Shown: positions 5,059 through 19,035 of the stretch, in pieces
Numbering within the stretch: position 1 is the first letter of the stretch
Layout of the letters: every line of letters begins with the position of its first letter
Assembly: GCA_963930775.1 (NCBI GenBank)
Contig: OZ005706.1
Span: 2,312,545 to 2,376,544, forward strand
Reading direction: 5' to 3'
Source of the DNA: Cliona cf. orientalis
Taxonomy: Eukaryota; Porifera; Demospongiae; Clionaida; Clionaidae
Length of the DNA: 64,000 nucleotides
Translations under genes and position numbers: made by a program
Notes under the pieces: generated by a model
Databases searched by the model: none
What the model was told of the DNA's origin: nothing
The model's input: the letters and a program-made list of their open reading frames with translations, nothing else

Positions 5059-8000
5059 TCAAGTACAGAAGTTTTGATATTTCTCCCTCAATGTCTTCAG
5101 GATATCTTTGAAGATATCCCTATCGTTATCAAGAACACGAAGAAAAGTATGGAAGTTTTGAGGCTCGAGTTTAACTTGAAGTTGAAGAATCTCAATCAGT
5201 CGTGCTGCACGTTCCGGTTCTGAATGCATTGTGTTTCTGATATCACTGTCATTATCGGTAGAAATGAGCTCTTCTGATAGTAGTGATGCTCCTAATGAGA
5301 AAAGGTGAGTCTGAACTGCAGTCCTTAGGACACGTGTGCATTTCACCATAGTCCTGTACTCGGGTGTTTCTGAAGGCTGGGCAGATGTGGGTTGGTTAGA
5401 ACTGCTTTCACCACTCCAAATAAGGTGGCGTGGTTGAAGAGTAACTGCTGTGTCATTCTGAATGCACTTGATAAGAAATGATCCTGACACTCTGTGCTCA
5501 CCGCGCTCGAATAGCATGAGATGTTCCGGCTGTGAATCCTGCCGCGTGAAATCCTGGGTGCACACGTTGTGGCAGCAAATGAAACCAAACTGATACATGG
5601 TCAGATCAGGGGAGGAGGTATACTGCTTTCTCAATCGATCCAGCACCGAGTCAAGTGTCTTGCAAACAGTTGATAGTACATCCTTGGCTACCTGGGCAGT
5701 TGGTCGATGTGGTGTTGTTTCAGGAATAGGGGCAAGATGAACTTCATATCGCTTTAAACGAGCAACGAGGGTGACATAATAGCTTCCTTCTACTTGAAAT
5801 GTCACCATATTCTTAAACATGGCAACTTTCTCTGAGAGCTTCCAACACTTTCTCATGGTAGAAACTAGCCTAGCAATAAGGGCTGAGAAGCAACCGAGAG
5901 GGACAAAGACGCAACAGAACCTGATCATCAAAGGAGCAACTTGAGAGTGACTGTAACCAAGCAGAGAGAGAAGCTCTTCATCCGAAGCTACCCTGAGCAC
6001 AGCAGGCAAAAAGAATACATCGCCTGTAAGCTTAACCAGCACACTAAGGAACTGAAGGATGCTCAAGAGTTGGTCGACCGTTAAGCCAGCTTCTTGGCTC
6101 TCAAATTCTAGGGCCTTTCGTACATCCCTCAGTCTGAACTGCCCTCGCTCCCAAAATTTCTTTTGAACGAGGTCATTGGGAGATCGCTCTGGAAGAAAAG
6201 CATTCAGTATCAACTGACTAACACTGGTGAAAATCACTTGTGGCTGACATATTATGACATCTTTCTCGAGCCCTTCAACTTCGTCTTTTCTGTAGTACAT
6301 CAATATGCCAATGTGGTGGTGGAGATACCACAACACATCCTTCGTATGATTGGGTGGTATGTGGAGCCTCTTTGCAATCTGTTGGCACTGCTCGATCGTG
6401 ATGACATCTTTATGCATTTTACGAAGAAAAATGCTAAACATGAGCCAGGAGGCAGGAATGCGATACTTTGAATCATCATAGAATTTTTCATTTATCATTT
6501 CCTCGATTACTTTACGGTGCCGATCAATTTCATCTACTCCACCAGTGTTGTCAACGCACAATACTAATTTCCCATCTGTTTTTGACAGATAATTGTGGTA
6601 TGGCTCTTCCTCAAGATATTCGTACTCTAAAAGCTTTTTCAACTCCTTTTGGATTTCTTCATCTTTGCTGGCTGCAGCTGTCTCACTCACCTTATCTCTG
6701 TGCGTTCCGACTATAATGGCTATCTGGCAAGGTGGTGGCATTGATTCAATCGGTTGAGGTTGATCACTTGTGGGGCTAAGGCACGCAATGCTAGATAAAG
6801 ATTGAAAAATTACCTCCAGCACTGAGTAGGAATACTGTAGCTTGTATTCTACTCCACTCTCAGACACGTACATGACTGAGTAACGCTGACTGATTTCATT
6901 TTGAAGGTTGAAGCAGATGAGGTAGAGTGCAGGACCAATAGTCAGTGCTGGAAGCATATCGAGAAATGGAGGCTGGCCACCCATGTCAATCATGTTGGCG
7001 AGGATGCTGTTGGTTAATATTTTCTCAATCTGGCTATACTTTTGTTGAATGAGCAGGCTTTCCCATTTCTCAAAGACCATTTCCACTTCTGGATCAAGAA
7101 ACTCCTCAAGCACTTCATTTTCTATCCCCTGATCTTGACTAGCTATAGCTTTCCGCTGTTGAAGTGCCTGCTCTGGATCTCGTGCTTCTTGATTCGTTCG
7201 GGCACCATCTGACTCGTCACTAGGAACTGGTGACCGTAGCAGATTTTGAATCGAAGTATTCTCACTTTCTTGTTGATGTTGAGTTGCTGTGTCACTGATA
7301 TCAGTGGTCGCTGGTGAGGTATCTTCATCTTCCTTGTTCTCTTTGATGAAACGGTAGATCACAAGTGCTTCTTTGTCTAAATCTCCATCACTCTTGACAG
7401 AGGACCAATTTGACTTGGTGATCACGGCAGATTTTTTCCCCATTTGTTCTTCGTCTGGACTGACCATAATCACACCATCATGTATCTCTGCAACTGGAGT
7501 GCTGGGTTCCACTTCTTGAGGGCCGATGCTTATTATCTCATTGATCAGGCGTCGTAGAAATGTCGTCTTACCAGCTCTGGGAGGACCGAGGAAGAGAAAT
7601 TTGAGATATTTTAGAGCTACACAAAAACCTTCCTTTAGTGCTTGCTGTAGGAATTCGTTACGTGTTGTACCTGAAAGGAAGTGTTAATCAGTTAATTATG
7701 CAAATAAATCAGAAACAAACACCTGAGATGAGATTGACCATAATATTATTATTATGCATGCAAAGTGTGTAACCATACTTGAATAGAGCTCTTCCTTTAA
7801 TTGATCACAAGTGGTACTCTCTCCCACATTCTTCAGTATGTACTGCACTTGTTGTAGAGTGGTAGCGACATCTTTTTCAATCATGTCAGAGATGCTGAAT
7901 CCTTTTTTTGTCAGTTTACTGATCACATGTTCACTAAATAAGCTTCTCAGGGCTAATAATTCAGCTTTGGTAAGGATCTGACCACCTATTTATTCATAAA

Positions 8001-19035: not shown

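Follow-up and report, generated by a model that had tools for sequence, protein, structure and literature searches.

In CSK the kinase domain is normally the last part of the chain. The locus analyzed here raises the question of whether a CSK-like unit and the immunoglobulin (Ig) and Roc-type GTPase sequences that follow it on the same strand belong to one gene and, if so, what such a protein could do. The window, that is, the whole 64,000-nt stretch of DNA examined, corresponds to C18:2312545-2376544 in an assembly of 216.8 Mb and 149 contigs. The reading favored here, to which we assign a probability of about 0.55, is that the gene encodes an intracellular ROCO GTPase scaffold in which a former CSK serves as a phosphotyrosine- and PxxP-binding arm, in a layout like that of DAPK1.

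Gene model and domain architecture

Rebuilt from its exons, the gene runs from 19035 to 5059 on the minus strand and consists of 17 exons that join into 5,082 nt encoding 1,693 aa, with GT-AG borders at all 16 introns and no internal stop. This reconstruction is identical to the single frame proposed in the first-pass annotation of this DNA, and both junctions emphasized there, 9594/9523 (phase 1, across a 70-nt intron) and 7779/7670, are exact. The order SH3-SH2-kinase-Ig-X-Ig-X-Roc/COR-tail, also proposed there, is one on which the gene model, the Pfam matches and the G motifs of the GTPase agree. One splice donor, that of exon 9 (GTACAA), is weak. The Pfam E-values, along with the 10 of 10 intron phases in common with an ordinary CSK gene on contig C14 of the same genome, place the architecture above chance, and the gene model and the fusion very probably hold. 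The features are as follows, all on the minus strand of the window:

18949..19035, minus: exon 1, start codon and start of SH3 (MSYAQ..GSAAH); junction phase equal to that of exon 1 of the C14 CSK
18037..18269, minus: exon 2, remainder of SH3 and a Ser/Thr/Ala-rich linker
16747..16866, minus: exon 3, first half of SH2, FLVRES kept
12051..12153, minus: exon 4, second half of SH2
11344..11446, minus: exon 5, last part of SH2 and linker to the kinase
11205..11270, minus: exon 6, kinase start with degraded G-loop AKGEFK
10975..11083, minus: exon 7, N-lobe of the kinase with the VAIK lysine kept
10423..10635, minus: exon 8, kinase, Src-docking helix MRAHGR with His at the R281 position
10214..10358, minus: exon 9, catalytic loop HR/DLAARN kept across the 8/9 junction; GFH in place of DFG; APE kept
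10070..10156, minus: exon 10, kinase C-lobe
9594..9753, minus: exon 11, kinase end; donor GGAA/GTAAAT near the position of the C14 CSK stop
9524..9593, minus: intron 11, 70 nt, the fusion junction
9242..9523, minus: exon 12, Ig domain 1, phase 1-1, without a start codon of its own
8971..9179, minus: exon 13, X module 1 (X1)
8748..8811, minus: exon 14, acidic linker, within which similarity to the C14 copy of the Ig-X-Roc part begins
8310..8591, minus: exon 15, Ig domain 2, phase 1-1
7779..7985, minus: exon 16, X module 2 (X2), predicted compact five-helix bundle (pLDDT 90.5)
5059..7670, minus: exon 17, Roc GTPase, COR-A, C-terminal part, tail and stop
5062..5355, minus: tail of 98 aa within exon 17, helical according to a low-confidence model; common to P0001 and P0002, not to the C14 copy

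Pfam searches recovered SH3_1 (residues 20-64, E 6e-10), SH2 (108-183, 2e-22), PK_Tyr_Ser-Thr (228-472, 4e-81) and two Ig_3 stretches (2e-20). The domains named in the first-pass annotation are thus found for SH3, SH2, tyrosine kinase and Ig; COR-A, placed after Roc in exon 17, lies at the edge of its cut-off (33.3 bits against 35.3 in the protein scan; 37.2, above the cut-off, in the genome search), and Roc falls below (15.1 against 27). The G motifs of Roc are present, namely G1 (GPPRAGKT at 852), G3 (DMGGQ at 1052) and G4 (THRD at 1146), with a G1-G3 spacing of about 200 residues; locus L058, which is interrupted by stops, was omitted from the comparison of these motifs. The tail, described earlier as helical, has no match to any Pfam family above the cut-off and no Pfam Death match, and its helices come only from the low-confidence model; the structure prediction for exon 17 has a pLDDT of 29. 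In the whole genome, a search with X1 (E<=0.001) found three X modules, two in the fused gene and one in an Ig-X-Roc gene on C14; the genome copy closest to X1 is 58% identical.

The N-terminus of the fused protein has no hydrophobic character, and the B-strand Cys is absent from each of the Ig domains, as is characteristic of intracellular Ig domains; a cytosolic location is therefore probable. In exon 17, three windows of 19 residues exceed a hydropathy of 1.6 (2.16 at 1404, 1.85 at 1364 and 1.71 at 1059), through which membrane contact is possible.

Origin of the CSK part

The closest relative of the CSK part within the genome is the following gene:

C14:1327968-1334827: ordinary CSK gene, eleven exons, 470 aa, DFG intact, stop directly after the kinase

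Its intron phases equal those of the fused gene at 10 of 10 positions and exons 3 to 10 are of equal length, and the encoded proteins are 67% identical over the CSK part (81% in SH3, 70% in SH2). The C14 CSK is itself 97% identical to P0125 (477 aa), which comes from another source on a contig of 2,437 bases. In the PDB, the fused kinase likewise matches CSK best (1byg, E 2e-94). In a phylogenetic tree of 21 proteins and the two CSK copies of this genome, the CSK part of the fused gene is the sister group of the C14 CSK and P0125 (support 96/95), and one clade with support of 100/100 unites these with the CSKs of Amphimedon and Ephydatia, a position from which the source can soundly be taken to be a demosponge. 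The branch of the fused copy is 0.58 long, against 0.18 for the C14 gene.

Synonymous sites are saturated between the two copies, with 88 of 125 fourfold sites differing, whereas dN of the CSK part is 0.22, and its 1,425 nt contain neither stops nor frameshifts. Given this combination, the CSK part has probably been kept by selection, for something other than catalysis. Both dN and dS are pairwise values that include the C14 branch, so that constraint on the branch of the fused gene itself is suggested by the saturation together with the intact frame.

Catalytic state of the kinase domain

The kinase was compared with a set of 121 CSKs, consisting of the best 120 of 4,787 protein matches and the C14 CSK. 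DFG is present in 118 of these (the others have two gaps and one DFS), and the fused gene has GFH. The G-loop reads GKGEFG in 89 of the 121; the next seven forms, found in 20 CSKs, all keep the first glycine and, except for three with Ala, the last one, and the loop of the fused gene reads AKGEFK. At the 114 positions conserved in at least 97% of the set, the fused gene carries 10 changes, against none in the C14 CSK, P0126 and P0127; P0139, a fast-evolving Ephydatia copy, has changed at 7 of 115. None of the 8 conserved SH3 positions is changed in the fused gene. Four of the ten changes are radical and affect catalytic or docking sites, G232A, R313H, D364G and G366H (CSK numbers 202, 281, 332 and 334), and the remaining six, elsewhere in the protein, are mild; by count, the excess at catalytic and docking sites is not significant (p 0.07).

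For docking to Src, CSK is described as needing R279, S280, R281 and R283 (PMC10016382), positions that read R, A, H and R in the fused gene. VAIK, the alphaC Glu, HRDLAARN, APE and the SH2 motif FLVRES are kept. With a pseudokinase defined by loss of the VAIK Lys, the HRD Asp or the DFG Asp, the DFG Asp is lost here and the other two residues are present. On these sequence features, the fused kinase has in all likelihood lost ordinary CSK activity. The first-pass annotation had envisaged a Src-family regulator joined to a Roc scaffold: the architecture behind this idea stands, but a working regulator is made less plausible by GFH, AKGEFK, S280A, R281H and the existence of a separate intact CSK, and these changes in sequence make phosphorylation of Src tails unlikely.

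The loss of the DFG Asp alone does not decide against activity, since CASK (GFG) and titin (EFG) are reported to be active without it (PMC2639636). Accordingly, the fusion could be real and its kinase unusually active in the manner of these two proteins, phosphorylating a new substrate under control of the GTPase. The retained VAIK lysine, alphaC Glu, HRDLAARN and APE would fit such an enzyme; however, both the Asp and the Gly of the DFG motif are gone, and the G-loop, which is intact in CASK and titin (PMC2639636), is altered as well, so that we regard this explanation as unlikely.

Distinctly unlikely, too, is a non-catalytic inhibitor resembling CHK, in which the pseudokinase would bind Src-family kinases and hold them inactive, with the ROCO part determining place or timing. 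CHK is reported to inhibit Src-family kinases without phosphorylating their tails, via determinants in its kinase domain (PMC5547543), and the kinase frame of the fused gene is kept; yet two residues that CSK needs for Src (PMC10016382) have been replaced, R281 by His and S280 by Ala. In CHK, altering five basic residues one at a time is reported to leave binding unaffected or only mildly changed, although two residues of the alphaF-alphaG loop are named as determinants (PMC5547543), so that these replacements are not decisive against the CHK-like explanation.

The fusion junction

That CSK normally ends right after its kinase, as stated in the first-pass annotation, is borne out by the C14 gene, which stops directly there; the fused gene runs on through exon 12. 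The last exon of the C14 CSK ends with CAA ATT AAA TCT TGA, and at the same place the fused gene reads GGA AGT AAA TTT, with the donor A/GTAAAT, in a single alignment whose columns beyond the donor are unreliable. A small number of substitutions around the former stop would have sufficed to make a donor that skips it.

The locus could instead consist of two adjacent genes, one CSK-like and terminating at 9532 by read-through of exon 11, the other an Ig-X-Roc gene whose own first exon lies in the CSK introns. The C14 CSK ends at the same place, the unspliced frame past exon 11 does reach a stop at 9532, and the relatives on C14 are two separate genes. Nevertheless, the parts are only 70 nt apart, with matching donor and acceptor phases, and the first Met of the Ig-Roc part is residue 149, within X1, even though the Ig1-X1 unit is conserved relative to Ig2-X2 (dN 0.32, dS 2.4). 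The frame of exon 12, which is entered in phase 1 like that of the other Ig exon, exon 15, extends upstream without a stop only as far as 9548. Since Ig1 is conserved but lacks a start codon, its translation must begin in a coding exon further upstream, of which exon 11 is the closest with a matching phase. We therefore consider two separate genes improbable, to much the same degree as the CHK-like inhibitor. An assembly misjoin or a decaying pseudogene is highly improbable: a stop-ridden 3' copy about 10 kb away does indicate that the neighborhood was rearranged, but the 17 exons are open in one frame, dN is low where dS is saturated or moderate, and the CSK copy, with a similarity of only 67% to that of C14, is not a misplaced piece of the latter.

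Relatives of the Ig-X-Roc part and genomic neighborhood

The scaffold half of the fused gene has a partial sister in the same genome:

C14:4860851-4864909: Ig-X-Roc-COR gene, one Ig-X pair found

This gene is 82% identical to the fused gene over residues 1-768 of exon 17 (77% including the tail) and 94% in X, and its introns are similar; the 20 kb read at this locus contain no CSK exon. At the DNA level, the window resembles this gene from 8778, inside exon 14 (the X1-Ig2 linker), through introns and up to 5385, before the tail. Since the C14 copy starts partway through an internal exon, it is most simply a piece of a gene in which Ig-X was already arranged in tandem. The synonymous distance between window and C14 is 0.36 for Ig2-X2 and 0.38 for Roc-COR; the split of the two Ig-X units within the fused gene is far older (dS 2.4).

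The tail of the C14 gene is weakly Death-like (Pfam Death E 0.03, below the cut-off). Two ORFs from other assemblies, P0001 and P0002, start in X2 and are nearer to the fused gene than any other locus of this genome; because its tail is kept in both (82% each), the Death-like tail of C14 is probably younger than this one. A 48% relative of the Roc-COR part, L031 (C3:11588514-11590763, plus strand), is followed by a Death-like exon (E 0.0008, 20.0 bits against a cut-off of 22.6). COR-A matches in the genome number at least 150 (of 290 candidates, 150 were scored), and many lie on C2, C7, C14 and C16, which amounts to a large ROCO expansion. Upstream of the C14 Ig-X-Roc gene, ORFs at L026:585-1058, 6621-7439 and 7471-7713 (all plus) appear helical or Death-like by eye; the ORFs there include a short one with a Roc-like P-loop stretch (GPPRCDK) and have no Pfam match above the cut-off.

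About 10 kb below the fused gene, L058 (C18:2307021-2307650, minus) duplicates the 3' end of exon 17, tail included, in a form broken by stops and adjoins further cytochrome P450 pieces, indicating a local block duplication; a cytochrome P450 gene (window 1014-3375, plus) lies just downstream of the fused gene, and similar pieces occur in L058. On the other side, an ORF at 24398-25174 (minus) with HAEE..PCGDC, which we take to have the look of a zinc deaminase, and an RG-rich end has no Pfam match at E<=0.001. Pfam matches at 27562-41000 comprise a Na/Ca exchanger, a pyridine nucleotide-disulphide reductase, an ankyrin protein, an NAD epimerase and a JmjC domain; 3 of 10 neighboring ORFs scanned lack any Pfam match. 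Elsewhere in the genome, C17:2316562-2324913 (minus) contains one uninterrupted frame of 2,925 aa in which ten tyrosine-kinase matches follow one another, and P0005 and P0006 from other assemblies look like proteins of the same kind.

Comparison with known proteins

Protein searches covered 5.77 billion proteins, with candidates chosen by length and shared words and about 8,000 of them scored. With residues 470-1693 as the query there were four matches, two X-Roc-COR-tail ORFs and two Ig-domain proteins, none of them joining CSK to Roc-COR. With residues 1-660 (lengths 931-2962), none of the best 120 of 668 contained COR-A, and an unverified sturgeon model (P0061) was alone among these in combining SH3, SH2, kinase and Ig by Pfam. 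The best 120 of 4,787 matches to the CSK part were all CSKs or CSK-like, none joined to Roc-COR. A fused relative should have appeared near the top of the matches to residues 470-1693 and 1-660, although, given how candidates were limited, fragments in transcript collections may escape such searches. In the literature searched, no protein joining CSK to Roc-COR was found. The earlier claim that no protein with this order has been described is thus in keeping with both kinds of search, and the layout appears to be one of a signaling protein not found elsewhere among the matches listed.

CSK, which is placed among the most ancient tyrosine kinases that animals and their relatives possess (PMC8662651), shares with the fused protein the SH3-SH2-kinase order, FLVRES and, for the C14 gene, 67% identity and 10 intron phases. 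The fused protein differs in continuing for 1,218 aa of Ig-X-Ig-X-Roc-COR-tail and in its DFG, G-loop and Src-docking residues.

As the ROCO proteins are grouped in PMC6337361, the DAPK1 group, the third, is the only one with a kinase before Roc-COR, and it has a Death domain and no LRR. The fused protein resembles DAPK1 in the position of the kinase, the lack of LRR and the extra C-terminal part; DAPK1, however, has an active Ser/Thr kinase, whereas the fused protein has a tyrosine-type pseudokinase with SH3-SH2, nearest to CSK. Ig-X stands where DAPK1 carries ankyrin repeats, and Pfam finds no Death match in the tail. LRRK1 and LRRK2, the second group, also combine Roc-COR and a kinase in one chain, but their kinase is C-terminal and they have LRRs (PMC6337361). 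The kinase of the fused protein is N-terminal and of the tyrosine type, with no LRR found by Pfam. CHK/MATK belongs to the CSK family as well and, to our knowledge, has no ROCO part. Inhibition by binding is a known mode of its action, and it is reported still to phosphorylate an optimal peptide (PMC5547543), in contrast to the loss of activity predicted for the fused protein.

Proposed working and implications

The sequence shows a CSK copy, duplicated together with its introns, in frame ahead of an Ig-X-Ig-X-Roc-COR gene, its normal stop being bypassed via the donor that closes exon 11. Comparison shows that this copy has lost catalytic and Src-docking residues while SH3, SH2 and the kinase frame remain intact, and that an ordinary CSK persists elsewhere. 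Within the favored reading of a ROCO scaffold with a CSK-derived binding arm, the following working scheme is put forward tentatively, at somewhat less than even odds. SH3 and SH2 would bind PxxP and phosphotyrosine partners and thereby bring the protein to sites of Src-type signaling, with the kinase-like domain acting as a docking unit or allosteric wedge rather than an enzyme. COR dimerizes in known ROCO proteins. GTP binding and hydrolysis by Roc-COR could provide the switch by which the Ig-X spacer and the helical tail open, or fail to open, for assembly; X, predicted to be a five-helix bundle, and the tail would be the assembly surfaces. The product of the fused gene would thus work as a ROCO switch.

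A link to innate immunity, raised in the first-pass annotation, or to cell-death assemblies may exist, and the Death-like tails of the C14 and C3 relatives, which score below the cut-off, help this suggestion a little. A more specific version, with an outside chance of being correct, is an integrated decoy, that is, a dead CSK with its binding faces kept, within a ROCO family that has Death-type tails. Plant NLRs can carry a dead copy of a guarded kinase. If the decoy explanation were true, anything targeting CSK/Src signaling, for example the effector of a microbe, would trip the GTPase scaffold, and the fused protein would be the animal counterpart of such NLRs.

Under the favored reading, a second CSK copy, apparently devoid of catalysis, would have become the input arm of a ROCO GTPase, and the layout of DAPK1 would have been reached convergently from a different kinase. 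With this protein it could be tested directly how an SH3-SH2-kinase unit can serve purely for binding and whether phosphotyrosine can drive a ROCO switch; the same animal supplies the controls for this in its intact C14 CSK and its C14 Ig-X-Roc gene without CSK.
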